Source: Natrinema sp. DC36 (lineage in GTDB: Archaea > Halobacteriota > Halobacteria > Halobacteriales > Natrialbaceae). Taken from it: 57,942 bases of DNA. Location of the stretch: positions 1-57,942 of the forward strand of contig NZ_CP084477.1 in assembly GCF_020405225.1 (NCBI RefSeq). Direction: 5' to 3'. Under the pieces are notes generated by a model that was not told the origin of the DNA, ran no database searches, and saw only the letters and a list, made by a program, of their open reading frames with translations. The translations under genes were made by a program, and so were the position numbers. Position 1 is the first letter of the stretch. Every line of letters starts with the position of its first letter. This document shows, one piece after another, positions 18,661-46,677 of this stretch.

Positions 18661-19032
18661 TCAGGCGCTCCCGGTGGCGACGACGACCCAGCCCGAAGCC
18701 GTGCCGTCGATGTTTCGGACGGTCGCTGTTGCGCCCGCTGCGGTCATGTTCGATGGCCCGGTACCGACGAAGTCGGCGTCGGTGAACGACACCGTCGGCG
18801 TCGACGCTCCGCCGTTGTGAACGACGGTGACCTCGCGCCCCTCCTCTGCGGCGCTCGAGAGGTCGACCGTGTTCGTCCCGTCAGCGGTGACGACGTGGGT
18901 GTCCGCATCTTCGCTGACAACCGTATCCGCCCCGTTGGCTGGTGCGTCGGTCGCGACGTTGCCGCGGGCGCCGTCGTTGAGGTACTTGCCGTCCTCGAAA
19001 CGGGATCGGACCCGTTCGTTAGTAGTGGTCAT
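18661..19032 (-). CDS. Probable capsid decoration protein
   Basis: This 123-residue, Ala/Thr/Gly-rich, beta-type protein is encoded 12 bases downstream of the major capsid gene in transcription order, where lambda gpD-like cement proteins are usually found. The sequence (DGTNTVDLSSAAEEGREVTVVHN...GWVVVATGSA) fits a small beta-tulip or sandwich. Position is the main evidence. Confidence 0.55.
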   Translation of the reverse strand: MTTTNERVRSRFEDGKYLNDGARGNVATDAPANGADTVVSEDADTHVVTADGTNTVDLSSAAEEGREVTVVHNGGASTPTVSFTDADFVGTGPSNMTAAGATATVRNIDGTASGWVVVATGSA

Positions 19033-19044
19033 CTATGGCCCCCT

Positions 19045-20088
19045 CTACGCCACCGGGTCCTGGATGTTCGTCGACAGAGCCCCCGCCTGGAGCTCCTTGA
19101 TCTGGTAGTCGAACTGCCCCTCGAGCCAGTTGCGCGAGTGCAGAACGTTCTCGTTGACCTTGTCGGAGTTGGTCGTCTGGTCGACCTCCATCTCGCGGAA
19201 GAGGCCGAACGCCAGGTTCTCCGGGTTCGTCAGCATCGCGTAGCTGTTCGGCCAGCCGTTGACGCCGATGATGTCGTACTCGAACGGCGTGACGTCACCG
19301 TCGCCCATGAGGACGGCCGCGCCGCCGACGTCCTCGCGCTGGGTCAGGTCGTAGTGGTACTGCTGGACCTGGTCCGGACTGCAGAGGAAGGCGATCTTCT
19401 CCGGATCGCGGTAGCGCTGGGGCACGGTCTGGACCATGTCGTTGAACATCTTCGTGTCGATCGGGGCCGATCCCATGTCGACCTCGGGCATGGTGTCGAC
19501 CTCGCCCGCTGCGGTATCCTCGAGGCCGATGCGGTCCGAGGCGGTGTCCTCGCCCTCGGCGATCGCGATCCATCCGTTCCACGTTTCGTCGAGGGAGGCG
19601 TCGCCCCCGATGGACGCGAGGTTGCCGGTGTCTGCGTTCGCGCGGATACCGATCAGGCCGACGTCGTTCGCCCAGCGCTGGATGAACTCGTCGATGATGT
19701 ACTGCCCGAACTGGTCGTTCGCGTAGTGGGTGTTCTTGAGTGCGTCACGCTTGGGCTCGACGAGGATGTAGTACTGCTTGTCCGTCGTGTTGAACTTCAC
19801 CTCGCCGGATTCCGCGCCGGAGTTCTGGGTGCGGTTGCCCTCCTCGTCACGCGTGCCACCCGAGAGCATCGGGACGCCCAGCTTCGGGACGTCTGCCTCG
19901 AGGCGGTCCAGCGGCATCGTGTCGGCCATGTCGAGGATACGGACCTCTTCCTGCGTCCGGGTGAGGAACTCCTCGACCGTTTCGGGGGCGAGCTGGAAGC
20001 CGTTGAGTTCGGCCAGGCCGATGTCTTTCTGCGATCCGTGCAGTGCGTCGCGGTTCTGCTGTCGCGCCGGCGTCATGTTAGTGCTCAT
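19045..20088 (-). CDS. Major capsid protein, HK97 fold
   Basis: This 347-residue protein follows the protease/scaffold gene and has features of HK97-fold capsid proteins: an N-terminal helical arm (GFQLAPETVEEFLTRTQEEVRILDMADTM), a spine-helix region (YANDQFGQYIIDEFIQRWANDVGL) and A-domain segments (PEKIAFLCSPDQVQQYHYDL, TPFEYDIIGVNGWP). Mature shells form from hexamers and pentamers of this protein. Confidence 0.85.
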   Translation of the reverse strand: MSTNMTPARQQNRDALHGSQKDIGLAELNGFQLAPETVEEFLTRTQEEVRILDMADTMPLDRLEADVPKLGVPMLSGGTRDEEGNRTQNSGAESGEVKFNTTDKQYYILVEPKRDALKNTHYANDQFGQYIIDEFIQRWANDVGLIGIRANADTGNLASIGGDASLDETWNGWIAIAEGEDTASDRIGLEDTAAGEVDTMPEVDMGSAPIDTKMFNDMVQTVPQRYRDPEKIAFLCSPDQVQQYHYDLTQREDVGGAAVLMGDGDVTPFEYDIIGVNGWPNSYAMLTNPENLAFGLFREMEVDQTTNSDKVNENVLHSRNWLEGQFDYQIKELQAGALSTNIQDPVA

Positions 20089-20100
20089 TTGTATACCTCG

Positions 20101-20511
20101 TTAGGAGAGGGCCTTCCCCAGGTCCCCCAGTCCGCCGTCATCGTTCTCTTCGCCCTCGTCGGCCGCGGCCTCGAGCTGCTGGCTCTCGCCGCCGGCACCG
20201 GTCTGCTGGACGATCGTGTCGAGACGGTTCTCGACCTCGTCGACGCGGCCAGCCTTCTCGTTGAGTCGCTCGATCGCGTCGGCGACGCCGATGTCCGATT
20301 CTTCGTCGACACCGAGGGCAGCCTTCGCCGCGTCCTCGCGGACCTCGTAGGTCTCGCCGTCGATCTCGATCTCCGCGGTCTTCGCCTCCGGCCCGGTCAG
20401 ACTCTCGGTGAGGTTCTCGACCGCCTGCGTCAGGTCGTTGATCTGTTCTGCGTTCTGCTTGGCGAGGGACTTATCGCCGCCCTCGCCGTCGTTGGTGGAT
20501 TCGTCAGTCAT
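20101..20511 (-). CDS. Possible nested scaffold protein (internal start)
   Basis: An in-frame ATG at 20511 (MTDESTNDGEGG) begins just where the helical scaffold domain starts and would give a separate 136-residue scaffold, as lambda Nu3 does inside the protease gene. There is no strong ribosome-binding site, so this is a hypothesis from domain boundaries. Confidence 0.35.
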   Translation of the reverse strand: MTDESTNDGEGGDKSLAKQNAEQINDLTQAVENLTESLTGPEAKTAEIEIDGETYEVREDAAKAALGVDEESDIGVADAIERLNEKAGRVDEVENRLDTIVQQTGAGGESQQLEAAADEGEENDDGGLGDLGKALS

Positions 20512-21783
20512 GTCTGTCTCTGTGGATTTGGTGTCGGTGTCAGCAGCGGCCTCCGTGCCACTCTCGTCCGACGTGTCGCCGCCGGCATCGTTACTTTCCG
20601 TACTGTTCGTGTCGCTCCACTCGAGGCCGTGGGCGTCAGTGATGATCTCTACGGTGGCCTCCTCGGCAGCAACGAACTCGCCGGACTCCGAGTGCTGGTA
20701 GCCTTCGGTGCCGTCCTCGACTGCCAGCTCCCAGTTGCCGTCGCCCTCGCCGTCACTGCCATCCTCGTCTTCGTCCTCGTCCTCGTCATTCGACCACTCG
20801 CGAGCGGTGTGCTCCGAGAGATCGAAGTCCCACCCGCCCCGGTCAGTGAACCGTTGGATACCGTGATCGATGCCGGCGTCCTCGAGGACGTCCGCGGCCG
20901 CGTCGATCGTCGCGAACAGGCTGTCGCGGTTCTCCGTCGAGAGGGTCCGGCCCTCCTTGCCGACATCTGTATCGACGTCCTTGCCGAACGTCGGGTCCGA
21001 AGTACGGCCGGGTTCGTCACGGGTGAAGAACGCTTTCGCACGAGTGATCCACCCCTTCTCGCCGGGCTCGGTCGATCCCTCGACCTGGGCCGCCTCGTTG
21101 AGGACATCCCACATCTCCTGGGCGTCCGATTCGGAGTGGCCGCGCTCAAGCGCCTCCTCAACGAACCCGTTAGGGTCGCCGAGGTAGTCCCCGAGACGCT
21201 TCTCTGCATCGGCCTTCGTCTCGAGGATCTGTGCATCGGGGACCGCCGGGATGTCGACGGCCGACACCTCGCGGATGAGTCCATCGATGAGCTCCCAGAC
21301 GAGGGCATCCTCGCCGAGATCGTCAGGCACCGCGACGTCGTCGACGACGTCGTCGTCCTGCTCGTACGGGCCATCCCAGCCAACCTGGATCGCGCCGATC
21401 GAGTAGCCCTCGAGGATACCGTCGGCGATGAGTTCCCAGAGCGAGTTCTCGTTGATGGCCCACTCCTGAACCCACGCGCCGGCGTCGACGGTCGACCCGC
21501 CGATCTCTTCGGCCTCGTCGAGGACCTCGTTGCGCTCGAGTTCCATCCAGCCGTCGGGGAAGACGGCGTGCATGATGCCGCCGCCCGCCTCGCCGGCGTC
21601 GACGAACGCCTCGAACTGATCGGCGAAGCCGCGGATGGTCTCCTCGCGGGCGAAGTCGTTCTGGAGGTCCACCTTGTCGGGGACCATCACGATGCCAGCG
21701 GCGACCTGCTCGTCGTCGTCCTTCGTGACGAACTCGACGTCCTTGCGGAACTGGTCGCCACCTGCCTTCGTTACCGGTGGCAT
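20101..21783 (-). CDS. Prohead protease fused to scaffold domain
   Basis: This 560-residue protein starts with an XkdF/U35-like prohead serine protease. Candidate catalytic residues are His72 (GGIMHAVFPDGW) and Ser128 (LEGYSIGAIQVG), matching the family's H...GxSIG layout. A long acidic linker follows, with a Glu/Asp/Ser-rich region. The last 140 residues are helical and scaffold-like (NAEQINDLTQAVENLTESL, ADAIERLNEKAGRVDEVENRL). It should cleave itself and the scaffold during capsid maturation. It lies between portal and capsid genes. Confidence 0.8.
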   Translation of the reverse strand: MPPVTKAGGDQFRKDVEFVTKDDDEQVAAGIVMVPDKVDLQNDFAREETIRGFADQFEAFVDAGEAGGGIMHAVFPDGWMELERNEVLDEAEEIGGSTVDAGAWVQEWAINENSLWELIADGILEGYSIGAIQVGWDGPYEQDDDVVDDVAVPDDLGEDALVWELIDGLIREVSAVDIPAVPDAQILETKADAEKRLGDYLGDPNGFVEEALERGHSESDAQEMWDVLNEAAQVEGSTEPGEKGWITRAKAFFTRDEPGRTSDPTFGKDVDTDVGKEGRTLSTENRDSLFATIDAAADVLEDAGIDHGIQRFTDRGGWDFDLSEHTAREWSNDEDEDEDEDGSDGEGDGNWELAVEDGTEGYQHSESGEFVAAEEATVEIITDAHGLEWSDTNSTESNDAGGDTSDESGTEAAADTDTKSTETDMTDESTNDGEGGDKSLAKQNAEQINDLTQAVENLTESLTGPEAKTAEIEIDGETYEVREDAAKAALGVDEESDIGVADAIERLNEKAGRVDEVENRLDTIVQQTGAGGESQQLEAAADEGEENDDGGLGDLGKALS

Positions 21784-21786
21784 GTG

Positions 21787-22038
21787 TCAGTCCTCCTCGT
21801 CGTCCCACTGGATCATCGCGACGTGCTCGTCGCTTACCAGCGCCGTGTTGCCTTCGCCGACGAACGGGACCTGACCGATGCCAGTCGGGTCGTACTCCTC
21901 AGCCGCCTCGAGGCGGATGTAGCCCTCTGGGATACCCTGCTTCGGAAACTCGATGCTTCCAGAATCAGGGATCTCGACACTCTCACACTCGAGTTCGAGA
22001 AGTTCGTCGCCGAAACGGAGCGTTACGTGCGTAGCCAT
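21787..22038 (-). CDS. Small conserved-looking head-cluster protein
   Basis: This 83-residue acidic beta-type protein (VTLRFGDELLELECESVEIP, ending AMIQWDDEED) lies between portal and protease genes with 3-base spacing. Function unknown; possibly a portal- or scaffold-associated factor. Confidence 0.6.
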   Translation of the reverse strand: MATHVTLRFGDELLELECESVEIPDSGSIEFPKQGIPEGYIRLEAAEEYDPTGIGQVPFVGEGNTALVSDEHVAMIQWDDEED

Positions 22039-22041
22039 GCG

Positions 22042-22170
22042 TCACCCCTCGTCTTCGTCATCGGCGGCGTCCGCGTCGGCGTCCTTCGTCTTCCCGAGCT
22101 TCCTGGCTCGGTCAGTCGAAAGGACGCCACGCTTTGCGCCGCGCTCTGCGTTCTTTTGAGAATCAGTCAT
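22042..22170 (-). CDS. 42-residue basic/acidic small protein
   Basis: This small gene starts at ATG 22170 (MTDSQKNAERGAKRGVLSTD) and ends 3 bases before the next gene. The first half is basic and the last 15 residues are nearly all Asp/Glu/Ala. Tight packing supports it being real; function unknown. Confidence 0.6.
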   Translation of the reverse strand: MTDSQKNAERGAKRGVLSTDRARKLGKTKDADADAADDEDEG

Positions 22171-22262
22171 AGTCTGTGCCGGGACGCCCCCGGCGAAGGC
22201 CTCTGGCGCGGAGTCGAACCGCGCGCCGTCCAGGCAGAGGCGAGCCGCCTGCAGCCGCAGCG
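22171..22262 (-). other. Structured intergenic segment after portal gene
   Basis: This 92-base gap in an otherwise gapless operon folds on paper into GCCTCTG/CAGAGGC enclosing a GCGCGG-TTCGACT-CCGCGC arm that mimics a tRNA T-arm. A second hairpin, GCCGGG-GGCGT-CCCGGC, follows. No complete tRNA fits: no anticodon arm or matching 5' acceptor strand is present. It could be an RNA processing or attenuation site between portal and downstream genes. Confidence 0.4.
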
Positions 22263-24242
22263 TCAGATCGACGGGACGTCGTCCGGCATCTCGTCGCCGT
22301 CCGGCATCGGGCCTTCTGGCAGACGATCGTGGAAGTTCGTGATCTCGATGTACGGATACTCGAGGCGGATGTTGTCGTAGTGGTAGCTGCCGTGACTCCC
22401 CGCGTTCACGAGCGACGACCACTCCGAGGCAGGGACGTCCACGTAGGCGTACAGCGAGTTCGATCCCTCCTCACGTTTGAAGGATAGGTACAGCTCGTTC
22501 TCGGAGTAATCAAACAGACCCTCGTCCAAATTCGAGCTGTTGAACTGAGTCTGCTCGAGCGGATCCTTGTTGACGAGGGCGGCCTGTACCTCGGCCCACT
22601 CTTTCTCCCCGATCTTGTTTTCCGGCGGTGGCTCGGCTGCGTTCGAGGGGAGGGAGGCTTCTTCCTCGCCACCCTCACCGCCCCCACCAGTGAACTGCGA
22701 CTCGAACTGCGCGAGCGGCATATCGCCGTACTCGTCGTCCCGGGTTGGGAGGCCGAGCTCCTCGAGGACCTGGTTGACCGTCGCGACGCCGGCCAGTCGC
22801 ATCGACCGGACCCGCTGCTCGGTCATCTGGGCCTCCTCCTTCGGTTGATCTGCCCCCCGGAGCTCGAACTCGATCGTCCAGTCCCGGATCCCGAACGCCT
22901 TCTGGTGGAGGATCTGGTAGAGCCGTTCGGCGAACTTGTACTGTTCTGGCTGGATCACCTCGAGGGCGAAGTCCCTGTCCTGTTGGTCGGAGTTCGACCG
23001 GTTCGAGGTACCCGTGTTCCCGATCTTGATCGGCGGGATCTCCAGCACCTTCGCGATCTCGTGTTCGTTCTTCTTCCGGAACTTCCGGAAGTCCATCTCC
23101 TCGGAGATCCCCTGCCCCAGCGGCTTGATCTCGATCTCGACATCGTTGCCATTCTCGGTTTTGAGGGCGTTGTCGTCGATGAACTTCTCGACCTCGAGGA
23201 TCACCGCCCGATGGGACTCCTCCCGGAGCCCGTTGAGCATCTGCCGGAGGTCCTTCCTGGACTCCTCGGAGAGCTCCCCGCCGGTCACCTTGATGACCAT
23301 CCGAGGGATGGTGTCGTTGTCGAAGAAGTCCCGGTTGTAGTCCTTCGCGGCCTCGTCCGCAGTGATCGTCCGGATGGCGCTCACCCAGTCCGGGACCCCG
23401 TAGTCATCGCCACCAGGGGACGGGTTAGTGACGAAGATCAGTTCGTTCGCCGGCCCGTTCTCGAGCTTCTGTGCAGACTCGGTGACGACGTCGCCGGTCT
23501 CCCGGTCGACGAAGATCGGCTCCTCGCTATCCTCGACGTTCTGATAGCGAACCTTTGGCGAGCCACCATCTCCCTCGGTGATCTGGATATCCAGCCCTCG
23601 ATAGCGGTCGCCGGCCTCACCGAAGTAGCGACGTCGACCGTCCCGGACCTGGACGTAGCCCCGACTGGCGAACTCGCCGACCTCGCCGTCGACGTAGCGC
23701 CCCTCCTCTGGGTGGCGGGGTTGATCGAACCGGCTCTGGGGTTTCCGGACGCGGACGGTCTTCGCGGGGACGTGTGCGAGGCCGACCGGTTTGCCCTCGA
23801 GGTCGGTCAGGATCTCGAGGCAACACCAGCCGATCAGGTGGTAGTCCTGGCGTGCGAGCTCGAGGACCTCCGACGGCGTCGTCGGTTCGGCCTTCTGCCG
23901 AGCCTTCGTCTGCCAGCGTGAGTCGAGTCCTCGCCAGAAGTCGCGGATCACTTCCTTCTCGAGATCGTCCGCCTCGTCTTCGTCGACGTCGGTGTGGGTG
24001 GCGATGCTGAACCCGTAGCCGACCTCGTAGCGAGCCTTCTTGCGGATCCCAGTCGAGAGCGTCTCGTTGAGCTCGTGGAAACTCGCCAGCCGGTACGGGT
24101 TGTACGGCGGCTTGATCCCGGCGCCGTGGGTCCGGATTCGCCGGTCGGAGAGTTGGGTACTGTTCTCCGCCTTCGAGAGCGGTGCCCCACCGCCGACGCC
24201 CGAGACTTTAACCGAAACCTCGCCCTCGTCTGCGCTACTCAT
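22263..24242 (-). CDS. Portal protein with C-terminal KTSC domain
   Basis: This 659-residue protein contains a portal core (HELNETLSTGIRKKARYEVGYGFSI, stem region NPSPGGDDYGVPDWVSAIRT, RNSDQQDRDFALEVIQPEQ) typical of dodecameric portals of the HK97/PBSX type. The last 90 residues form an extra domain (FNSSNLDEGLFDY...LYLSFKR...VPASEWSSLVNAGSHGSYHY) with the pattern of the small KTSC domain. The core forms the DNA channel and motor dock; the appended domain may face the capsid interior or terminase. The start overlaps the 50-residue gene upstream. Confidence 0.85.
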   Translation of the reverse strand: MSSADEGEVSVKVSGVGGGAPLSKAENSTQLSDRRIRTHGAGIKPPYNPYRLASFHELNETLSTGIRKKARYEVGYGFSIATHTDVDEDEADDLEKEVIRDFWRGLDSRWQTKARQKAEPTTPSEVLELARQDYHLIGWCCLEILTDLEGKPVGLAHVPAKTVRVRKPQSRFDQPRHPEEGRYVDGEVGEFASRGYVQVRDGRRRYFGEAGDRYRGLDIQITEGDGGSPKVRYQNVEDSEEPIFVDRETGDVVTESAQKLENGPANELIFVTNPSPGGDDYGVPDWVSAIRTITADEAAKDYNRDFFDNDTIPRMVIKVTGGELSEESRKDLRQMLNGLREESHRAVILEVEKFIDDNALKTENGNDVEIEIKPLGQGISEEMDFRKFRKKNEHEIAKVLEIPPIKIGNTGTSNRSNSDQQDRDFALEVIQPEQYKFAERLYQILHQKAFGIRDWTIEFELRGADQPKEEAQMTEQRVRSMRLAGVATVNQVLEELGLPTRDDEYGDMPLAQFESQFTGGGGEGGEEEASLPSNAAEPPPENKIGEKEWAEVQAALVNKDPLEQTQFNSSNLDEGLFDYSENELYLSFKREEGSNSLYAYVDVPASEWSSLVNAGSHGSYHYDNIRLEYPYIEITNFHDRLPEGPMPDGDEMPDDVPSI

Positions 24243-32278: not shown

Positions 32279-32561
32279 CGGTATCACCTCGATCGAGCAC
32301 CTGGACGAGCTCCCATTGTTGCGTCGGGAGGTCAGTCACGAGGTCGTCGTTCTCGATCGTCACCGTCGGCCGAACTGGATCTGGGATCAACTCGTGATCG
32401 ATGTACTTGACCTTCGTACCGATGTGTCGACCGACAATCGTGCCGATCTTCCCCTCCGCATCGATTCCGCGATCGTCGACGTTGCGAACCTCGATCCGGA
32501 GGCCCTCGACGTCGGACCACGGGTGTTCGTGGACGTCGTCCAGGTTCTCGAGGTCGGTCAT
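32268..32561 (-). CDS. Hypothetical acidic beta protein
   Basis: This 97-residue protein is probably a single SH3-like or KOW-like barrel: LRIEVRNVDDRG, GKIGTIVGRHIGTKVKYIDHE, PTVTIENDDLV, WELVQVLDRG. Function unknown. It overlaps the large gene upstream by 4 bases. Confidence 0.55.
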   Translation of the reverse strand: MTDLENLDDVHEHPWSDVEGLRIEVRNVDDRGIDAEGKIGTIVGRHIGTKVKYIDHELIPDPVRPTVTIENDDLVTDLPTQQWELVQVLDRGDTDGE

Positions 32562-35500
32562 GCTCCCACCTCACTCGAGTCATCAGGCGTCGGAAGTGGC
32601 TGCTGGGCGAGCGTCGTCGGCCCCATCGTCACGGTCGTCGGTTCGACCAGTTCTGCGTCGACGTCGTCAAGGGCCGCAGCCGCCGTGATCCACGGGCCGA
32701 CGTCGTCCATTACAAGTAGTTGTAATGGATCCGGTGGCCAGAACAGTACACCTCCGGCCGGATCGTCCGGATCGCCGTATCGATCCGGTGGGAGGAGGTC
32801 CTCGAGGACGGCGTCGGCTGCCTCGACGATCAGGATCTCGTCGGTCGCGACGATCTCGGGGTAGACTTCGGACTGTCGCTCTTCCGGCGTCCGGAACGAC
32901 AGTGCGAGTCGGTAGCCGTCGTCAGTGATCTCGAGCAGGCCAAGGCCCTGGAGCCGATTGCGGTGGTTCCGAACCGTCCGGGCACGGACACCGGCTCGAT
33001 CGGCGAGTTCCTTCTGGGTGATCGGTTCGTCGACGTCGAGCAGCGCGGCGATGATCTTGCCAGCATCCCCGCAGTCCGGGAGAATAGCATCGGGGCTGAG
33101 TTGCTGCAGGACGAATCGGACGTCGTCCGCTCGGAGGTCTCGAGTTTCGTCTTCTCGAGGGAGGGAGAGCAGCGCCTCGGCGAGATCGTACGGCGTCGCG
33201 ACCAGACTGTGGAACATCGAGATCGCCGCCGGCGTCGACCGAAGCCGTTTCCGGTAGAGGAGACGGGGCGCGACCTCCTGGTAGGCGTCGCGGTCGGGTT
33301 CCGTGACCGGTATCTTGACCTGGAACTGTGCCGGGTTGTCGAGTAGTTCTCGAGGGTGTTCGAGGTAGTATTCGAGATCGTCGCGAAGCCGGTGAGCATC
33401 TGGACCACGAATCACGAACGAGCCGATGAGCTCGCCGACCGGATCCGATGCATCGGCGATCGGCCCACCGAGTGGTGGAGTGCTGTTCGGGACGTCGAAC
33501 AGCTGGCGGTAGGCGGCGTACCGGCCGTACTGCGACGAGATCGACGCCGAGATAGCGAGCGATCGTGCCAGGTCGTCGAGTTTGTCGTCCTCGAGGTCGG
33601 GAGTGACCCGCACTTCGCGGATGATCTCGATGCCAGCAGCATCGAGAAGGTGCACGATCGAGCCTTCGAGACCCTTTGCAGAGGTGAGGATCGCCGAGCA
33701 AAGGTCGTCGCGATCCTCGAAGTCCCCCGATTTGAGCCGGTCGATCATCCCGAGGATCGCCTCACCCCACTCAACGAGGTCGGACCGGAGCTCCTCGGGA
33801 TCGTCCAGGGAATCGCTGGTCACGGGACCGATCTGACGAGCCGCGTTGAGAACGTGAGTCGGTTCGTCGATCTCGGCGATCCGCTCTGCTGGGAGCGCTT
33901 TATCGAGGAACAGCTTCTCGTCGGCTAACGCCAGTGCGGTCGTCACCGTATACTCCATCGGAGTCGAGGCCTTCGGGGCGACGATCGCCTCGTCGCGTTC
34001 CTCGAGGTAGCTCACTGGCCGTTCGCGGTAGTCTGCAGTGGCGTCAGCGTCCGGTAGGCTGCCCGTGACGAACGTCACGGTCCCTGACTCGGCGGCTGCA
34101 GCGGCGGCAGCGTGTTCCTCGTGGCCCAGGTAGGTGGTGATGTACGGCCGGCCCGTCCTCCCACCCCCTCGTGTACGCGGTGTTCTACGCCACTGTTGGG
34201 ATGAGTTTCCGGTCCCACTAACACTGCCTTCCAGCGTTTGTTGCTGCCCGTCTTCGGACGCGAGAGTGTCCAACACTTCGCATCCCGGTTCGAGCAGTTC
34301 GACTTGCTGTGAACCACGGGATCCGAACACCTCGATCAACTGCAGCTGCTCGAGGGAGTCGTCGACGGCCTGGCTGGTCAGGATCTGCGCCCGGCGGGTA
34401 CGTCCGATATCGTCATGGAGCGCCTCGAGATCGGCACGGTCCATGATCCCGCCGGGTTCCCGAGCGAGTTGCCCGAGCATTTCGACGTGGCGGCCGTCGG
34501 GATCGAGTACGTCCACTGCATGGCTGACGACGTCGTCGACCCAGCTGGTATCCCGGTGACGATTCCGGATCTCACTAACGCCCGGCAGGTCGCCGCGGTA
34601 CTTGTCCGCCAGCAGCGAGAGTTCACGACCGGTGCCGACGATTCGAACATCCAGACCTGCAGCGAGGATGGCCAGCAGGTCACAGATCGGTTCGGCGTCG
34701 CGACGATCGCGCTCGAGGAAGATCTCGGCGAACGAGACACTGACCGCAACCGTTGTCTCGAACGTCGCGGCCAGTGCAGCCGTAGCGAGGAGATGCTCAG
34801 TCTTCGTCAGCGGCGTCTCGGGGAGCCGGGTCAGTGTGTCGGCAAACTCCTCTGCGGCCTCGTGATCATCTCGTGCGATCGCAACGATATCTGACCGAAT
34901 CCAGAACGGAATCGAACGCTCTTCGAGGACATCGTAGACGTCCACGACATCCATCTCCCCAAAGGCTGCTTCGAGACCATCGGCATACGCTTTCTTGACG
35001 CGGTCGATCTCGAACACTCGAGACCAGACATCGCTGACTGGCTCGTCGCCGATCTCGACCGTCTCACTAATCTGGGCCTGGTTCGTCGGCGTCACTTCAC
35101 CGCGCGGGAGCGCGTCGACGTCGATCTCTCCGACCCACTCCTCGAGGTCGTCCGTGATGAGTTCCCGACCGATGTCGCCCTGGGTATCATCCGAAACCTC
35201 GCCGGAGAAGGCGTCGGCGTAGAATGGGCGATCATCGACGAGGTCACCGAACCGGTCGGCGTCGATCGGATGGTCGTCGACAAACGCTTCGAACTTCTCA
35301 GACCCGATCGGCTTCAGATCCATCAGATCTGCGTCGACCGGGAACTGCTGCATCTGGCGCTCGACTTCCTCGAGCTGCTTACCGTACTGGCCGCGATCCT
35401 CAGTGAATCGCTGGTAAACGTCGAGTGCGCCGGCTTCGTTGGCGATGTACTGCGCCCGCGCTTCGGCAGCTGCCTCTTTCGTCTCCTGCCGGGTGACGAC

Positions 35501-35623
35501 TTTCGGGGACGTCACTTCGTTCGGGCAGTTCGGGCAGGAGATCGAGTCTTGTACCCGGCGGTCGTGTTCATCGACGATCCACGGGTTCTCGCACTGCCCG
35601 CAGAGGACGACCTCGAACATCAT
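32558..35623 (-). CDS. Large early-region protein, N-terminal zinc ribbon and C-terminal HTH
   Basis: This 1021-residue protein has an N-terminal zinc ribbon (VVLCGQCENPWIVDE...SCPNCPNEV) of the kind found at the start of large haloarchaeal plasmid and provirus proteins (DUF5817-like). A long helical body follows. Near residue 890 there is a winged helix (ITQKELADRAGVRARTVRNHRNRLQGLGLLE) and then an FWPPDPLQLLV segment. No polymerase, helicase or nuclease motif is evident. As the largest early gene it is a candidate replication or genome-maintenance factor, but this is unproven. Confidence 0.65.
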   Translation of the reverse strand: MMFEVVLCGQCENPWIVDEHDRRVQDSISCPNCPNEVTSPKVVTRQETKEAAAEARAQYIANEAGALDVYQRFTEDRGQYGKQLEEVERQMQQFPVDADLMDLKPIGSEKFEAFVDDHPIDADRFGDLVDDRPFYADAFSGEVSDDTQGDIGRELITDDLEEWVGEIDVDALPRGEVTPTNQAQISETVEIGDEPVSDVWSRVFEIDRVKKAYADGLEAAFGEMDVVDVYDVLEERSIPFWIRSDIVAIARDDHEAAEEFADTLTRLPETPLTKTEHLLATAALAATFETTVAVSVSFAEIFLERDRRDAEPICDLLAILAAGLDVRIVGTGRELSLLADKYRGDLPGVSEIRNRHRDTSWVDDVVSHAVDVLDPDGRHVEMLGQLAREPGGIMDRADLEALHDDIGRTRRAQILTSQAVDDSLEQLQLIEVFGSRGSQQVELLEPGCEVLDTLASEDGQQQTLEGSVSGTGNSSQQWRRTPRTRGGGRTGRPYITTYLGHEEHAAAAAAAESGTVTFVTGSLPDADATADYRERPVSYLEERDEAIVAPKASTPMEYTVTTALALADEKLFLDKALPAERIAEIDEPTHVLNAARQIGPVTSDSLDDPEELRSDLVEWGEAILGMIDRLKSGDFEDRDDLCSAILTSAKGLEGSIVHLLDAAGIEIIREVRVTPDLEDDKLDDLARSLAISASISSQYGRYAAYRQLFDVPNSTPPLGGPIADASDPVGELIGSFVIRGPDAHRLRDDLEYYLEHPRELLDNPAQFQVKIPVTEPDRDAYQEVAPRLLYRKRLRSTPAAISMFHSLVATPYDLAEALLSLPREDETRDLRADDVRFVLQQLSPDAILPDCGDAGKIIAALLDVDEPITQKELADRAGVRARTVRNHRNRLQGLGLLEITDDGYRLALSFRTPEERQSEVYPEIVATDEILIVEAADAVLEDLLPPDRYGDPDDPAGGVLFWPPDPLQLLVMDDVGPWITAAAALDDVDAELVEPTTVTMGPTTLAQQPLPTPDDSSEVGA

Positions 35624-36132
35624 GCCGACTCACCCCCGTGGTGGAGCCGCCGGTGGTCTGCTGGCGTCAGAACCTCGAGGTTTTCCGGCCGATTATCCCA
35701 CTGAACCCCGTTCCGGTGGTGGATTTCTTTCGAGACGACCTCTTCGAAGCCATACTCGGCGACTGCGAGCAAGCGGTGGACATATACTTTATCCTGGTCG
35801 AACTTACCGTTGGAAGCAATCCAACACGGGTACCTCTCGGCGTCCCGAATTGGGTGCTTGAAATTAGCTGTGCGTGACCGTTTCCCCCGAAGGGACTCAC
35901 TGACAGACCGCCGCTCGATGCCGAAGTGCCCGAGCCACTCCCTGATGAGTGGTGGCGTACAGCCGAGATCGTCGGCGATCTCGTACGAGGAAAGACCTTC
36001 CTCGATGTAGAGTTGTCGAAGCGTCTCCTCGTCATGCCACGGCTCGTTATGCCCATTCGCTTTATGGACTCCGAGACCACGGTTTGAGCCGAACTCGCGC
36101 CCACAGATTGGACACGTGAACGACTCGCTCAT
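35620..36132 (-). CDS. HNH endonuclease with zinc finger and HTH
   Basis: This 170-residue protein has a C2H2-like finger (CPICGREFGSNRGLGVHKANGH), one HTH unit (ETLRQLYIEEGLSSYEIADDLGC) and an HNH core (VYVHRLLAVAEYGFEE, EIHHRNGVQWDNRPENLEV, PADH). It is a paralogue of the HNH gene at 2115. It is co-translated with the 1021-residue gene (4-base overlap) and preceded by a long structured leader (36133-36370). Confidence 0.88.
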   Translation of the reverse strand: MSESFTCPICGREFGSNRGLGVHKANGHNEPWHDEETLRQLYIEEGLSSYEIADDLGCTPPLIREWLGHFGIERRSVSESLRGKRSRTANFKHPIRDAERYPCWIASNGKFDQDKVYVHRLLAVAEYGFEEVVSKEIHHRNGVQWDNRPENLEVLTPADHRRLHHGGESA

Positions 36133-38081: not shown

Positions 38082-38443
38082 TCCGACCACCCTCCGTCGA
38101 GATCCTCGACTCGGCAGCGGGTGCAAAGATGTTTGCCGCCCAACTCTCGAACTCGCATTTTGGTCGGGCCACAGTTGTCGCACACGCGGTCAGCGCCACT
38201 TTCTGCACCACAGAACGGACATTCGCTCCCTCGCGCTTCGGCCACTGTGTCTGCTGCCGACTCGGGACAACGATGGACCCATCGGGCAGGGTCGATCTTC
38301 AACTTCTGATCGCAGCCCGGGCACGTAGCGATTCCTAGCGTGCCTCGAGCGATTGCTACCCTGAATCCGCAGTTTCCGGGACACTCAACGGCCACCAATT
38401 CTGCTGCGCGCTCAGTTCCGCTCGAGGAGTGTCCGTCACTCAT
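38078..38443 (-). CDS. Triple zinc-ribbon protein
   Basis: This 121-residue protein starts at ATG 38443 (MSDGHSSSGTERAAEL). It carries CPGNC...CPGC, then CPFCG...CDNCG and LCTRC, so two or three zinc ribbons. A nucleic-acid-binding or adaptor role is plausible; no family is recognised. Confidence 0.65.
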   Translation of the reverse strand: MSDGHSSSGTERAAELVAVECPGNCGFRVAIARGTLGIATCPGCDQKLKIDPARWVHRCPESAADTVAEARGSECPFCGAESGADRVCDNCGPTKMRVRELGGKHLCTRCRVEDLDGGWSE

Positions 38444-38675
38444 CGCTCGAGCTACCTCCGTTACTGTCGATGACGTGGCGGACCTCGCCGGCGTCGAAGT
38501 TGACGATCGTGTTCGTGACCTGGAGGCCGTGCCGCTCGACGAGGTCGTGGACGTCCTCGGTCTCGATCTCGTTGACGCCGTCGTGGTCACGGCAGCTGAC
38601 GACGATCGCGGCGCCGTCGCGACCAACCGAGACATCGTCGAGGCTCATCGCCTCGAGGACGAACTGGTCGCTCAC
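38436..38675 (-). CDS. Hypothetical acidic protein
   Basis: This 79-residue protein (LEAMSLDDVSVGRDGAAIVV, VTNTIVNFDAGEVRHVIDS) looks like one small alpha/beta domain. It overlaps both neighbours. Function unknown. Confidence 0.6.
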   Translation of the reverse strand: MSDQFVLEAMSLDDVSVGRDGAAIVVSCRDHDGVNEIETEDVHDLVERHGLQVTNTIVNFDAGEVRHVIDSNGGSSSDE

Positions 38676-39202
38676 GCCGACTCACCTCCGTTTCCAAAGC
38701 CAGCCTCTGCAAGGACGTCCGCCGGCGTACGCCCGTACTTGCTCGTATCGCCGTCGTTGCGTTCAAGGCCGAGCCACTTCTGGACGCAGTTTCCGCATAG
38801 CCGGTCCTCGACGAGCTCGTCGTCGAAGTGCTCGTGTTCGAACGCACGTGGAGTAGTATCGTTTCGCTCGTCGGCCCAACACAGCGTCACCGGCTCGTCG
38901 TACGAACTGGCGTCGCCAGCGAGGTGGATCTGTTGGGACCGGCGGCTCGTCAGACGGACCAGGTGATCGATCTCTGCCCGAACTTCCTCAAGGTCGATAT
39001 CGTAGCCGCCATCGGTTGCGACCTCGCGATCGCCGTTGTCGCTCCCCTCGAGGAAGCAGTCCATACAGGGAAGCGCGTCGACGTCGGCGTCTGGGCCCGG
39101 ACATCCGTGCGTCCCGTTGCGACAGTCATCGGTCTGGCCGCCTACACCACCCTCGCTGCGGACGGCGTCGACGGATCCGTAGTGCCAACCGGCGCGGCTC
39201 AT
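38672..39202 (-). CDS. Zinc-binding hypothetical protein
   Basis: This 176-residue protein has cysteine sites at CRNGTHGCPG...CMDC and CGNC near the C-terminus, a helix (DLEEVRAEIDHLVRLTSRR) and a VATDGGYDID sequence matching the inter-module motif of the neighbouring 736-residue protein. Function unknown. Confidence 0.6.
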   Translation of the reverse strand: MSRAGWHYGSVDAVRSEGGVGGQTDDCRNGTHGCPGPDADVDALPCMDCFLEGSDNGDREVATDGGYDIDLEEVRAEIDHLVRLTSRRSQQIHLAGDASSYDEPVTLCWADERNDTTPRAFEHEHFDDELVEDRLCGNCVQKWLGLERNDGDTSKYGRTPADVLAEAGFGNGGESA

Positions 39203-41409
39203 GCCGATTCACCTCCGTCTTCGTCCTCGGCTAGCCGATCAATCGCGACATCCTCGCACTCGGCACAGAGGTCGTACTCGTGGTCAATGTCCTGCAGTTC
39301 GACGTGCTCGAGGCGCTTGAGGTCGGATCCGCATAGCGGTTCGTCGTCTTCCTCGAGGCAGTAGGTCCCGTTGAACTCGAGGACCTCGATCTCACTATCG
39401 TAGAACGCGCGCTGGTAGACGTGAAACTCCGAACTCCAGACGAGGCAACCAGGAACGCCGGCGACGCGCTCGAAGTTGCTACAGAAGCCGCCCTGGACCT
39501 CGTTGTGCCGGCCGCACAGCGACATCCCGCAGCAGCCACACCGGCCGTGGACAGTCTCCGTACAACCGTCTTCGGTACAGAGGTCTTCTAGGCTGGGCTC
39601 TGGTTCAGGCTGATCGTCGTAAAGGACGTGGTGATCACCGGAGTGGAAACCACCATCGGTCACTATCTCGTAGCCAGCTTCCTCGAGTTTCTCTTCGGCC
39701 ACGTCGAGATCGTCTAGCGTCAGCTTCCCGTTGTCACCGCGGATGACCTCCTTAACCGCCTGCTGGACCAACTCGTCGACCTCGGTCGGCGTCTCGGCGC
39801 CGTACCGATCGGTGAGGTACCGCGGATCGAGATCGCCCGCTTTAACCCGGGCCTCGACGAGCGCTTCGTGCCACGCAACGGAGAGCCAGCGCTCGGAATC
39901 GACTTCGGTCCGCCGGAGGCGGTCGGGCCGCGGCTCGTAGACATGGCCTCGGTCGTGGAGCCACCCGATCGCGTCGTGGACGTCTGCCCGGACCAACTCG
40001 GTCCGGCTGACGATCCAGTCGACGACGTCACCTGTGGGGATGCCGTCCTTCGCCTCCTGGTCGTCGTGTTCGCCAAGGGCCATCCCGACGAGATCGTGGG
40101 TCGAGAGCCCCTCGAGGTCGGCGCTGCCGCCGTCGGTTGCGATGTCGTCGTCTGGCTGCAGGTGCGGCGGCAGGTTCTCGAGATCGTCACTATCGACACC
40201 AGTCATCACGACCCGGTTCTCGTTCTCGAAGCCGCAGTGACGGCAATCGAACTCAACGATGAGGTGGTAGTCATCGTCTGCGACGTCCACCGTCTGATCG
40301 TAGTCGGCGTTCGGGTTCTCGCAGTCACAGGACCGACACGTCAGCAGGCCTTCGGCGGCTTGCAGTCCAGCGTCGGGAGCGTCGGGTTCGATTTTGTCGA
40401 ACGTCTCCCGCTGCGGGCAGCTGTCTCGCTCGTGGAGCCGGAGGCGGGTGAGGGTCCGGAACGTCTCGCCGCAGGCGTCGCAGACGTGTCCAGAGCCGTC
40501 GGTCGCGACCAGCACGCCCGGTCGGTCGACACCATCCGTCCACTCAACGCTGTAATCGTTGTGTTGGATGTTGTGCACGAGCCAGAGGGCGGACATCGTC
40601 CCGGCCGTTCCGGGTCGCATACCCGCGCGACGGCTTGCTTCCCGTGGGTCAGTAAACGGCCCACCAATCACTCGGGCAGGGTCCTGGTGTGCATCGGCGA
40701 GAATGTACCAGGTGTGGGCGAGGTCATCACCACCGGCATGTCCTCCGTCAGTTGCGACCGTTGGAGTGGTCGGCGGGATGATCGTCTGCGTACGGACGTG
40801 ATCGCACCGGCGCCCCGATTGATACCGTTGGGCGATGACCTTCGCAGCGTTACTGTCGGCGTAGTTTGTTGTCTCCCAGCATGTTGGGTTGGTACACCGA
40901 AACGTCTCGTTCAGCTTACGCTCGCCAATGGCGCCACAGACGTGGCACTCTTGTGAGGTGTACTCTTCAGGGACCGTTTCGACTTCGATCCTGTACTCAC
41001 CCGCAACTGTCCGCAGCCGGTAGTTGGCGGTTGAAAGCAGCCACGACGTCCCGCGGTGGGCATCTGGATCGGTTAGCCATGCCCACAGATCTGGGTCATA
41101 GTGAGAGTCCTCGAGGACGATCACGGGATCGTCGTAGGCACTGGCGTACTCGCAGACCTCGTGTGCGGCGGCGTCGATGAGATCGACGATCGCGTCGTGG
41201 CGCTGTTGAACGTAGCCGGCGATCGCCTCACGGGAGTAGTCGTCCCCGGCGAGTAACGCGACCGTCTGGTTACGAAGATCGTCTAGCTGCTGGCAGATCT
41301 CTTCACCCCGAACCATCAAGGCACCCTTCCAGTCGGGCATCCCTGCCGGGCATGCGACGTACAGATACCGCTCACCGAGATCGATACCAATCGGCATCTG
41401 GGACATCAC
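39199..41409 (-). CDS. TnpB-like RuvC nuclease fused to zinc-finger and HTH modules
   Basis: Residues 1-200 form a TnpB/Cas12-type RuvC core: Asp10 (GIDLGERY), Glu100 (VIVLEDSHYD), zinc ribbon C155xxC158...C172x4C177 and Asp185 (YADSNAAKVIA). The 90- and 85-residue spacings match TnpB. The usual N-terminal RNA/DNA-recognition half is absent, since RuvC-I begins at residue 7. Downstream come a small domain (230-295), a C2H2-like finger (310-331), a zinc pair region (358-392), an MCM-like winged helix (455-500), a helical region and a C-terminal cysteine cluster. The GTG start overlaps the upstream RHH-HTH gene. Nuclease competence is inferred; the role could be recombination, defence or DNA processing. 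Confidence 0.75.
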   Translation of the reverse strand: MMSQMPIGIDLGERYLYVACPAGMPDWKGALMVRGEEICQQLDDLRNQTVALLAGDDYSREAIAGYVQQRHDAIVDLIDAAAHEVCEYASAYDDPVIVLEDSHYDPDLWAWLTDPDAHRGTSWLLSTANYRLRTVAGEYRIEVETVPEEYTSQECHVCGAIGERKLNETFRCTNPTCWETTNYADSNAAKVIAQRYQSGRRCDHVRTQTIIPPTTPTVATDGGHAGGDDLAHTWYILADAHQDPARVIGGPFTDPREASRRAGMRPGTAGTMSALWLVHNIQHNDYSVEWTDGVDRPGVLVATDGSGHVCDACGETFRTLTRLRLHERDSCPQRETFDKIEPDAPDAGLQAAEGLLTCRSCDCENPNADYDQTVDVADDDYHLIVEFDCRHCGFENENRVVMTGVDSDDLENLPPHLQPDDDIATDGGSADLEGLSTHDLVGMALGEHDDQEAKDGIPTGDVVDWIVSRTELVRADVHDAIGWLHDRGHVYEPRPDRLRRTEVDSERWLSVAWHEALVEARVKAGDLDPRYLTDRYGAETPTEVDELVQQAVKEVIRGDNGKLTLDDLDVAEEKLEEAGYEIVTDGGFHSGDHHVLYDDQPEPEPSLEDLCTEDGCTETVHGRCGCCGMSLCGRHNEVQGGFCSNFERVAGVPGCLVWSSEFHVYQRAFYDSEIEVLEFNGTYCLEEDDEPLCGSDLKRLEHVELQDIDHEYDLCAECEDVAIDRLAEDEDGGESA

Positions 41410-42350
41410 ATCCCACCTCCTGCAGTACTGCGGCCGCCATCGTGATCCCGGAATCTGACACTCATCAAACGGCGGTATGCAGCGAGCAGTTCATGGCTTT
41501 CAGCGGGATCAGTGCATGCGGCGATCGCGCCCTCGAGCCCGCGTTCTGCTCGGGTGATCTCGGTCTGGAACTGTTGTGTCGTCGGGATACTCCCGGATCC
41601 GTCGGTTGCAATCGTCTCTTTGCGTGTGGGGTTCGTCTCGGACTCGCTCGAACCATCTAGGTCGCCGGCTTCGGCGGCACTCCTAGACCCGATATCATCA
41701 GGTGATGATATCTCGAGTAGTTGGTGCGCCGTGCTCTTCCGCTGATCCTCTGGCCCAATGATGTCGAAGTCGTTGAGCCGTGTCCGGATGGTTTCACGAC
41801 TGACCGACCCATCGAACACATCCTGAGCAATCTCGGAACAAGTGAGATCTTCCTCATGATAGAGGCGTTCGAGCGCCTCTGGGTCGTCCCACTCTCCTTC
41901 TTTTCGAGTGCCTATCGAACCGTCCTCGTAATCGTTCGGGCTTCGGCGCTCGATCTCGTGATGGTCCATCCACCGTGAAACCGTGGAGTTGGCACAGCCG
42001 AGTTCGTCTGCGACGTCGCTGATCGTCAGCCTCTCGTCGTGGTAGAGTTCCCGAAGCGTCGCTTCGTTACGCCATGGTGGCTGGTAGGTGTCGACGAAGT
42101 CCCGGATCGCTTCGCGGATTCCATCGCTCCGACTCTCAAACTGATTCTGATAGTCAATTGTAACATCCAGTTCTTCGAGTAGCGAATCCGGGACGCGGAT
42201 GCCCAAGTTTGACGTTGGTTCTCCGCCGTCAGGACGGAGGCTCTGCGCACCGCTCGCATCTCCATCACCGTGGAACGGCTTTCCGCAGCGGTGGCACTTG
42301 TACGACAGATCGCTCTCTGCATCACAGACACGACAGTAGCGACCACTCAT
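41406..42350 (-). CDS. RHH-HTH-HTH DNA-binding protein
   Basis: This 314-residue protein has an N-terminal zinc ribbon (CRVCDAESDLSYKCHRCG), a ribbon-helix-helix segment (LGIRVPDSLLEELDVTIDYQN...RSDGIREAIRDFV) and two HTH units (LRELYHDERLTISDVADELGC and LERLYHEEDLTCSEIAQDVF). A charged C-terminal region follows. The HTH units match those in the HNH endonucleases. Co-translation with the RuvC fusion gene suggests it supplies DNA recognition for that nuclease or represses the operon. Confidence 0.75.
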   Translation of the reverse strand: MSGRYCRVCDAESDLSYKCHRCGKPFHGDGDASGAQSLRPDGGEPTSNLGIRVPDSLLEELDVTIDYQNQFESRSDGIREAIRDFVDTYQPPWRNEATLRELYHDERLTISDVADELGCANSTVSRWMDHHEIERRSPNDYEDGSIGTRKEGEWDDPEALERLYHEEDLTCSEIAQDVFDGSVSRETIRTRLNDFDIIGPEDQRKSTAHQLLEISSPDDIGSRSAAEAGDLDGSSESETNPTRKETIATDGSGSIPTTQQFQTEITRAERGLEGAIAACTDPAESHELLAAYRRLMSVRFRDHDGGRSTAGGGM

Positions 42351-44104: not shown

Positions 44105-44349
44105 TGGCCGTCACCTCCGTTGAACCCGACCGCGACCGTGTACCCACTTGCGATCCACTCGTCCTCGCCATCGCCCGTCACGAGGTAGCGGTGAGCGCCG
44201 AGCATCGGGCCACCGTTCAGCGGCTCGAGTGTGTCCGCGCGAGCCTCGGCGTCATCGAACTCCTGGGCGACCTCGAGACGGCGGACGAGTGCAGCGGTCT
44301 CGTCGACGTCGTCGTCCTTGAGGCGGGAGTCGTTGGCGTCGGTGCTCAC
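44101..44349 (-). CDS. Hypothetical small protein
   Basis: This 82-residue acidic protein ends in a strand-rich segment (GAHRYLVTGDGEDEWIASGYTVAVG). Function unknown; it is in the gapless early operon. Confidence 0.6.
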   Translation of the reverse strand: MSTDANDSRLKDDDVDETAALVRRLEVAQEFDDAEARADTLEPLNGGPMLGAHRYLVTGDGEDEWIASGYTVAVGFNGGDGQ

Positions 44350-44774
44350 GCCGTCTCACCTCCGATCGTCATGGCTGCGTCGTTTTCGTCGAATTCAAGC
44401 TCCGTTTCCGAATCGCCCTCAGTGTCAAACCGTTGGTCGAGATCCTCGAGCAGGTCGACGAACGCGTCGAAGTGCGGGCCGGGTTCGACGTGGTGGCCTC
44501 GAGGCCCCAGATCGATCACGTCGCGTCTGTCGAGTTTCGGCAGGTGATCCTGGTAGAGCGCGATATACGTTGACTTGCGCTTGGATTCGGTGACTGACGC
44601 GATCGCGTCCGCAAGCGCGCCGACTTCCATCGGACCGAGCGTATCGACGTAGTCGATTACGAGCCGACGACGCTCGTTGCTCACTAGGTGCAGCGTCGTG
44701 TCCATCGGGAGTTCGATGGGTTCAGGTCCAGGATCACGACCGAGCAACGAGGACAGTAGCTCGAGCGGTTGCAT
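44346..44774 (-). CDS. Haloarchaeal winged-helix regulator (DUF7344-like)
   Basis: This 142-residue protein has the pattern of haloarchaeal winged-helix repressors: LHLVSNERRRLVIDYVDTLG, ALADAIASV, KSTYIALYQDHLPKLDRRDVIDLG, then a wing with RGHHVEPG. It follows the PadR gene by no bases, so the two regulators are likely expressed together and control the early operon. Confidence 0.75.
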   Translation of the reverse strand: MQPLELLSSLLGRDPGPEPIELPMDTTLHLVSNERRRLVIDYVDTLGPMEVGALADAIASVTESKRKSTYIALYQDHLPKLDRRDVIDLGPRGHHVEPGPHFDAFVDLLEDLDQRFDTEGDSETELEFDENDAAMTIGGETA

Positions 44775-45143
44775 CTACTTCTCACCCCCGTTGAGATGCG
44801 CCTCGAGCCACTCGAACTCGTGCCTAAGAGCGGTATGGCCTTTCTCCGTCAGTGCGTAATTGTTCGTCCGCTTGTCGAGTTCGGACTTGTCGACGAATTC
44901 CTGATCGACCAGCTTGTCAAGATTCGGATACAATCGGCCGTGATTTATCTCTTCTCCGTAGTATTCTGAAAGCTCTTCTTTGACCGCCAGACCGTACCGA
45001 TCGTCAGCTGCGAGGATCGCGAGGATCCGAACCTGGAACTTCGTCAGGTCGGCCGCAGTCTCTTGAATTTCCGTTTCAGTTTCACTCGATTCGATACCGC
45101 TATCCGTTCCGGGGTTGTTCTCCCCGGTAACTCCATGCGTCAT
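44775..45143 (-). CDS. PadR-family transcription regulator
   Basis: This 122-residue protein has an acidic N-terminus and then a PadR winged helix: LTKFQVRILAILAADDRYGLAVKEEL...INHGRLYPNLDKLVDQEFV, ending in NYALTEKGHTALRHEFEW. PadR proteins usually repress their own operons in response to a ligand or stress. Confidence 0.85.
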   Translation of the reverse strand: MTHGVTGENNPGTDSGIESSETETEIQETAADLTKFQVRILAILAADDRYGLAVKEELSEYYGEEINHGRLYPNLDKLVDQEFVDKSELDKRTNNYALTEKGHTALRHEFEWLEAHLNGGEK

Positions 45144-46341: not shown

Positions 46342-46677
46342 ATGGCTAACTCGGCCAACGGGTCGGACGAGCCCGAAATGCATCGGCAGGTAAGTTGGAT
46401 GGTGGCAGCCGATGCGCTTATCCTCGAGTTTCTCTACTCAGCTCGCGATCGGCGTGGGCGCCCATCGATTCAGACGCCACGAACGATCAACCTCAACACG
46501 GGTTACTCTCGACAACACGCCAGTGGCCGCTGTAAGGTCCTCGTCGAGTACGGTCTGGTCGAGCAGACCGGCGAAGGGGAGTATCGGCTAACCGAGTTCG
46601 GCGAGCGAGTCATGAACGACGACGTCCCGCTCGAGGAGCTGGACGAGCTCGAGCCGAAAGTCGACGATGAAGAATGA
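46342..46677 (+). CDS. PhiH1-repressor-like winged-helix protein
   Basis: This 111-residue protein has the sequence pattern of haloarchaeal PhiH1-repressor-type regulators: WMVAADALILEFLYSA, then NTGYSRQHASGRCKVLVEYGLVEQTGEGEYRLTEFG. It is a good candidate for the main lysogeny repressor. Its upstream region has an operator array, and the downstream gene on the other strand is an exported membrane protein. A related winged helix is encoded at 49587. Confidence 0.8.
   Translation: MANSANGSDEPEMHRQVSWMVAADALILEFLYSARDRRGRPSIQTPRTINLNTGYSRQHASGRCKVLVEYGLVEQTGEGEYRLTEFGERVMNDDVPLEELDELEPKVDDEE

Follow-up and report, generated by a model that had tools for sequence, protein, structure and literature searches.

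A TnpB-type RuvC domain apparently parted from its guide RNA: a solo RuvC family in Natrialbaceae and its fusion to shuffled modules in a Natrinema virus

Background

What does the RuvC nuclease domain of TnpB do when it stands without the half of the protein that binds RNA? This question is raised by an open reading frame (ORF) in a 57,942-nucleotide (nt) stretch of DNA from Natrinema sp. DC36 (contig NZ_CP084477.1, positions 1 to 57,942), the whole of which is called the window here. A preliminary description of this ORF, made from the letters alone, took its product to be a TnpB/Cas12-type RuvC core that had lost the RNA-binding half, carried new modules in its place and had become a protein-guided viral enzyme. 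We report that the core belongs to a family of such proteins, called solo RuvC, in the Natrialbaceae. The evolution of TnpB and Cas12 is usually told as the gain or change of a guide or, in the case of TldR, as the loss of catalysis. Solo RuvC apparently took the opposite route, the guide being lost and the active site kept, and so the function of a bare TnpB RuvC becomes a testable question.

Results and discussion

The RuvC core of the fused ORF

The ORF at 39199-41409 on the reverse strand is real: it has 736 codons in a single stop-free frame and its coding score is strong. It starts with GTG at 41409, counted as residue 1 throughout, and ATG at 41406 is an equally possible start. The key residues of its RuvC domain are D10, E100 and D185, and a zinc ribbon is formed by C155/C158...C172/C177. 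The triad is spaced by 90 and 85 residues, to be compared with 87 and 83 in ISDra2 TnpB, in which it is D191-E278-D361 (PMC10097598). Pfam Cas12f1-like_TNB (PF07282) matched with an E value of 6e-10 and NCBIfam guided_TnpB with 1e-11, residues 7-195 corresponding to positions 198-389 of the 389 in the latter profile. The score of 44.7 bits is below the curated cut-off of guided_TnpB (100 bits), as is that of the standalone relative L037 (31.5 bits), and a genuine haloarchaeal TnpB scored 118.7 bits. The core is 35% identical to ISH12 TnpB, and the match to TnpB is not due to chance.

An AlphaFold2 (AF2) model was made of residues 2-230, with a mean pLDDT of 75 and low confidence for residues 198-229. 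VIA-align matched it to the RuvC and TNB half of Cas12f only (Z 13.7), model residues 1-203 being equivalent to OsCas12f 220-424, and also paired it with true RuvC resolvases (Z about 10). By sequence, predicted fold, catalytic triad and four-cysteine ribbon, residues 1-205 are identified as the RuvC and TNB half of TnpB/Cas12f. The frame opens just 27 codons upstream of the GTG, and therefore no WED/REC part is encoded there; this part is absent rather than hidden. Thus the agreement with TnpB in the sequence and spacing of triad and ribbon, the start of RuvC-I at residue 7 and the loss of WED/REC were all described correctly at the outset, and structure prediction of the RuvC part alone gave the RuvC fold.

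A family of solo RuvC proteins in Natrialbaceae

The ORF is no one-off, as a survey of homologues in 392 genomes of the order showed. Solo RuvC loci, 52-62% identical to window residues 4-229, were found only in the window's own family; after a gap in identity came ordinary TnpB, at 33-40% and with open frames of 400-500 codons. There are 35 solo loci in 25 of the 125 Natrialbaceae genomes, with no more than two in any genome, and the carriers include Natrialba, Natrinema, Halopiger, Natrarchaeobius, Natronolimnohabitans, Halostagnicola and Natronorubrum. Named examples are NMAG_RS17800 on pNMAG01 of Natrialba magadii and BB347_RS17805 of Natronorubrum daqingense (L037). The proteins are mostly free-standing, have 210-310 amino acids (aa), begin at RuvC-I and mostly end just past an ADGG motif. 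Of the intact members, the window copy has diverged furthest, and no other carries additional fused modules. The TnpB-derived core without an RNA-binding half stands as first described, but most copies lie on plasmids or chromosomes and not in viruses. A scan of IMG/VR gave no relative of solo RuvC confirmed by tblastn, and in phage records the only match was the TnpB of phiH/ChaoS9, with no solo RuvC. In the open-access literature searched, to which paywalled articles and those bioRxiv preprints not in PubMed Central do not belong, no account of a RuvC-only TnpB family was found, in agreement with the earlier statement that such an enzyme was not known to be described.

In a maximum-likelihood tree, 30 solo proteins are monophyletic (support 100/98), and a branch of length 1.63 (in changes per site) separates them from the TnpB of haloarchaea. 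The D/E/D triad and the four ribbon cysteines are invariant in all 30, and the median pairwise ratio of nonsynonymous to synonymous substitution rates (dN/dS) is 0.35, an approximate value from a counting method. By these measures the family is under purifying selection and its active site is intact. TldR is a nuclease-dead, RNA-guided relative of TnpB, and a dead nuclease of this kind is ruled out for solo RuvC by the intact triad in 30 of 30. It could be argued that these genes are decaying TnpB remnants, or chance ORFs, kept by hitch-hiking, and a few chromosomal copies (G353:C1, G252:C1 and G279:C17) do look truncated or disrupted. However, the family is a single clade in which some 30 loci have an intact frame, synteny is common to different species, and the invariant active site together with the dN/dS value rules out the pseudogene reading, so that decay is largely refuted and has hardly any probability left. 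Solo RuvC was also considered as an active transposon, and this was rejected: where a genome has two copies they belong to different clades, each with its own conserved flanks, and for this reason they have not jumped recently.

Probable loss of the guide RNA

A search with N-terminal halves of TnpB against the 20-kb neighbourhoods of the solo loci and against the window gave nothing except a remnant of about 60 residues lying 5 kb away in L035. The 3' ends of the genes were compared at a body identity of 0.85-0.90. In haloarchaeal TnpB controls, identity was 0.86 in the last 90 nt and 0.80 in the first 80 nt downstream and then fell to 0.52, which is the random level. An omegaRNA would be expected to leave such a footprint. 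In the solo genes the 3' end was less conserved, with 0.81 followed by 0.67 and 0.69 downstream, and there was no boundary. The family alignment showed no conserved noncoding block beside the solo RuvC gene, and Rfam gave no match to known RNA families.

In ISDra2 TnpB, RuvC helices 1 and 2 bind omegaRNA via conserved basic residues (PMC10097598). The net charge of this segment averages +2.1 in 22 haloarchaeal TnpB proteins as against -5.0 in the 30 solo proteins, and over the remainder of the RuvC domain the charge shifts in the opposite direction. One arginine present in 22 of 22 TnpB proteins is aspartate in 30 of 30 solo proteins, and another (22/22) is serine; a lysine or arginine (20/22) has become alanine or glycine, and an arginine or lysine (22/22) tyrosine. 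The arginines in the ribbon and near RuvC-III are kept in all 30. The three tests concur, and loss of RNA guidance in the solo family is well supported: the N-terminal half and a TnpB-like 3' signature are missing, and several basic helix residues are lost or reversed in charge. No trace of a guide RNA was seen, in line with the preliminary description.

Solo RuvC might still be guided by RNA, either a host omegaRNA acting in trans or a new type of RNA that needs only the RuvC surface for binding. The RuvC domain of TnpB makes some of the contacts with omegaRNA (PMC10097598), many of the genomes with solo RuvC also have ordinary TnpB genes, and these tests would miss an RNA whose sequence is not strongly conserved. 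We nevertheless regard this as improbable, given that basic residues of the RNA-contact helices are lost or reversed in charge and that a TnpB-like 3' signature, a conserved noncoding block and an Rfam match are lacking. The descent of the family from TnpB and the loss of a canonical omegaRNA are well supported and very probable. The family probably arose only once, through loss of the WED/REC half and the omegaRNA.

Genomic setting of the standalone copies

A divergent gene for a winged helix-turn-helix (wHTH) regulator of about 80 aa adjoins the standalone RuvC gene in 32 of 33 loci, and one member of it matched phrog_2440 (E value 1e-32). In the window, a regulator of this family lies opposite the early operon with its PadR-like gene, as in the imm/T1-T3 region of phiH. 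This nearly constant neighbour is in favour of a regulator like TldR, that is, a domesticated DNA-binding protein acting with the phrog_2440 regulator, for example at the gvpO locus or at a viral early promoter; TldR is a precedent for TnpB becoming a regulator (PMC13418256). The invariance of all catalytic residues and the loss of the DNA-recognition half (WED/REC) make such a role very improbable.

Downstream of solo RuvC there is, in 23 loci, a gene for a coiled-coil protein of about 298 aa (c2) and, in eight loci, gvpO-type gas vesicle genes, GvpO being recognized by Pfam (E value 4e-28) and NCBIfam. As a conserved partner of RuvC, c2 was rejected: it is present in 85 of the 125 genomes, mostly without RuvC, whose slot is then simply missing. 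This protein has a basic C-terminal part (L034-L063, L097-L116) and up to 12 copies per genome, and a conserved inverted repeat with CTCGAG lies upstream of the RuvC-less c2 elements. The eight gas vesicle loci (L038, L039, L040, L042, L044, L051, L053 and L066), in which the RuvC and wHTH pair stands beside GvpO and a GvpN-like AAA protein, are all in genomes of the window's genus; some are chromosomal, and some of the chromosomal copies are apparently truncated.

The setting also bears on whether solo RuvC could be a structure-specific nuclease (a resolvase, or a flap or single-strand nuclease) of early viral or plasmid replication and recombination, the fused modules then serving for general DNA binding. 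The window gene lies in an early operon, next to PadR and an imm region resembling that of phiH, VIA-align matches true resolvases as stated above, and most copies have no co-translated DNA-binding partner. Against this, solo RuvC is confined to one archaeal family and missing from most relatives and is therefore not needed for replication; the eight gvpO-type loci, some of them chromosomal, do not fit well; and the layout of zinc ribbon and RuvC-III is that of TnpB and not of resolvases. We consider this reading unlikely, although it is the strongest of the alternatives.

The cassette and the coupled protein in the window

Immediately upstream of the RuvC ORF, and overlapping its start with its own stop (GGAGGTGGGATGTGATG), is the gene at 41406-42350. 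Its product has a ribbon-helix-helix (RHH) domain (RHH_1, E value 2e-3), a helix-turn-helix (HTH) domain (HTH_23, 2e-6) and a second HTH, and the helices of its predicted model fit an RHH and two HTH units, with an overall pTM of only 0.37. Residues 89-198 match phrog_8446, an HNH endonuclease (2e-19), and the HTH part also matches the HNH proteins of HCTV-5 and PhiCh1; its relatives are 33-52% identical and six were confirmed to be HTH-HNH proteins. By Pfam, the HNH domain itself is absent from 41406-42350, and so the cassette pairs a homing-type DNA-binding protein with a TnpB-type RuvC in place of HNH. As a partner of the whole family, the RHH-HTH-HTH protein was rejected, because the 1.5 kb around the standalone copies contain no homologue of it; thus the co-translated upstream protein of the preliminary description is present but is specific to this locus.

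In a syntenic locus, L028, a gene for a 126-aa protein lies between the same neighbours as in the window, which are homologues of 44346-44774 on one side and of 38436-38675 on the other. The protein reads ...LRPDGG-SDLEECSTHDLVG... and directly joins what are residues 1-43 of the window's HTH protein to the RuvC ORF at residue about 428. In the window the two halves of this L028-type gene are separated by 2,096 nt with GACGGCGG at each end. L028 and L140 have nothing in this slot, and other modules occupy it in L139 and L143. Set against L028, the cassette is shown to interrupt a small zinc-wHTH gene at a DGG-coding seam; this is one clear case and not proof of homing.

The explanation we favour, to which we give about an even chance, is that the ORF codes for a TnpB-derived DNA endonuclease of the guide-free solo RuvC family that is directed, in the window, by protein modules. 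The RuvC domain would cut DNA using metal ions, and solo RuvC is likely to be a working nuclease. Targeting in the window virus would fall to the RHH-HTH-HTH protein together with the zinc and wHTH modules fused to RuvC, and the pair would work like a homing-type endonuclease with RuvC in place of HNH. This mechanism is proposed because a homing-type DNA-binding protein neighbours a TnpB-type RuvC in the cassette. Elsewhere in the family, other DNA-binding proteins or the structure of the DNA may set the target. Protein guidance in the window virus is a reasoned hypothesis to which we give somewhat less than an even chance, and homing by RuvC is doubtful. The wider proposal, that the nuclease domain of TnpB went from RNA guidance to protein guidance with interchangeable DNA-binding modules and here became a two-gene RuvC homing endonuclease, its cassette set at a TDGG-coding seam, is equally tentative.

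Several points weigh against this explanation. The RHH-HTH-HTH partner and the C-terminal modules are confined to the window copy, and protein guidance is therefore not a trait of the family. No other virus was found to carry this cassette, so that active homing is not shown, and the genes could equally have been brought in by recombination at TDGG seams. Three invariant arginines of the helix 1-2 region (columns 49, 63 and 91) are retained, and since the RuvC domain of TnpB also contacts RNA, some residual RNA binding by solo RuvC could persist.

C-terminal modules and TDGG seams

The features of the locus are collected in Table 1. Beyond the RuvC core, most of the modules recur in other combinations elsewhere: residues 305-418 are the entire 120-aa gene of viral contig L004, residues 300-427 recur inside a 445-aa mosaic protein of L003, residues about 233-317 and 512-587 in a 555-aa mosaic of L138, and residues 422-507 in the 126-aa gene of L028. 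The C2H2-like finger has a Pfam E value of 0.03, yet it is 67-77% identical to its viral homologues. The joints between modules read (A/V/I)TDGG, a motif found 6 times in the proteins of the window, or roughly ten times as often as after shuffling (0.6). The T is encoded by ACC in 86% of 14 cases as against 36% overall. A purely DNA-level recombination site was rejected: the TDGG-coding DNA pattern falls in the sense frame that reads TDGG in 32 of 33 occurrences, and TDGG is therefore maintained at least as a protein linker. Mosaics with such joints are encoded at 39199-42350 and 38672-39202 of the window and in L003, L028 and L138-L143. The early-operon slot of related proviruses holds different modules, as if cassettes were exchanged at the TDGG seam, and the cassette is an example of the shuffling of haloviral protein modules at a single linker motif. 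The extra modules are best described as a local fusion of shuffled haloviral modules outside the solo family, whose core stops at ADGG. Thus the zinc ribbons, C2H2-like finger, wHTH-like module and cysteine-rich tail noted at first are present, but they do not replace WED/REC.

Table 1. Coordinates and characteristics of features in the window
Feature	Position	Strand	Remarks
Fused ORF, 736 aa, solo RuvC and shuffled haloviral modules	39199..41409	(-)	No in-frame stop
RuvC and TNB zinc ribbon, residues 1-205	40795..41409	(-)	Pfam/NCBIfam; AF2 and VIA-align; family alignment, 30/30 invariant
TDGG seam, residues 220-223	40741..40752	(-)	Standalone relatives end here (ADGG)
Module of unknown function, residues about 229-302	40504..40725	(-)	53% identity to a module of an L138 provirus protein
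C2H2-like finger and Cys4 ribbon, residues about 303-430	40120..40503	(-)	Occurs alone as a 120-aa gene in L004
wHTH-like module, residues about 431-505	39895..40119	(-)	In L028 fused directly to the zinc ribbon of the upstream gene
Module, residues about 506-587	39649..39894	(-)	Begins a separate downstream gene in proviruses L138, L139 and L140
Cys-rich C-terminal tail, residues about 588-736	39202..39648	(-)	No family match
Coupled 314-aa protein: zinc ribbon (1-43, PDGG seam), RHH, two HTH	41406..42350	(-)	HTH part akin to HTH-HNH endonucleases, HNH absent
Cassette of 2,096 nt: rest of HTH protein, RuvC and modules to residue about 428	40126..42221	(-)	Not in syntenic L028; both seams have GACGGCGG
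PadR-like regulator, first part of the early operon carrying the RuvC gene	44775..45143	(-)	phiH-like layout
Divergent wHTH regulator, phrog_2440	46342..46677	(+)	Same family as the regulator beside standalone copies

The window virus

Because the window has genes for a portal (70% identical to that of BJ1), a terminase and a RepH-like protein as in ChaoS9/phiH, it is taken to be a mosaic tailed virus or provirus of the phiH/BJ1 type. Signs of mosaicism are seen at 22263-24242 and 32558-35623, the portal being BJ1-like and the replication protein most like the RepH of ChaoS9/phiH. This virus has two further HNH genes (2115-2783 and 35620-36132), one with an HTH and one with a C2H2 finger, and endonucleases of the homing type are thus common in it. 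A 1187-aa open frame at 18817-22380 (+) runs antisense to structural-gene candidates at 19045-21783 (-) and is probably a high-GC shadow frame, although a simple codon model scores it as coding. The gene at 11369-12634 (-) contains four copies of a 27-nt in-frame tandem repeat (12033-12167).

Comparison with known systems

At 210-260 aa, solo RuvC would be a very small nuclease module of the Cas12 type, and it comes from named, culturable haloarchaea. With TnpB of the IS200/IS605 and IS1341 type, such as the ISH12 TnpB of phiH, it shares the RuvC fold, the order and spacing of D-E-D, the four-cysteine TNB ribbon between RuvC-II and RuvC-III and 33-36% identity over the C-terminal half. Unlike TnpB, it is without WED/REC, an omegaRNA signature or the basic residues that contact RNA, and it shows no TnpA or element ends, its loci being stable and common to several species. 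Cas12f is the best structural match to window residues 1-203 (VIA-align Z 13.7), but half of that protein is missing in solo RuvC and a guide RNA signal was not found. TldR, too, is a TnpB relative domesticated by viruses and hosts; it keeps the RNA-binding half and loses catalysis, and solo RuvC is the reverse.

The homing-type HTH-HNH endonucleases, such as HCTV-5 gp111 and the PhiCh1 HNH protein, have an HTH module in common with 41406-42350, and their likeness extends to a cassette that splits a gene left whole in a relative. In the window HNH is absent, and a TnpB-type RuvC is the only nuclease of the cassette; the six families that PMC6083498 lists do not include RuvC. The homing insertion of the ShiLan type in a phage methylase (PMC11855218) is likewise a nuclease-bearing segment inside a viral gene, with no splicing, but it consists of one out-of-frame HNH, whereas the window cassette has two genes and modules and its host gene is split across two products. 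Finally, the RuvC Holliday junction resolvase has the RNase H-like RuvC fold in common with solo RuvC, which is a match of fold only; the resolvase is without the TNB ribbon, and by sequence the kinship of solo RuvC is with TnpB.
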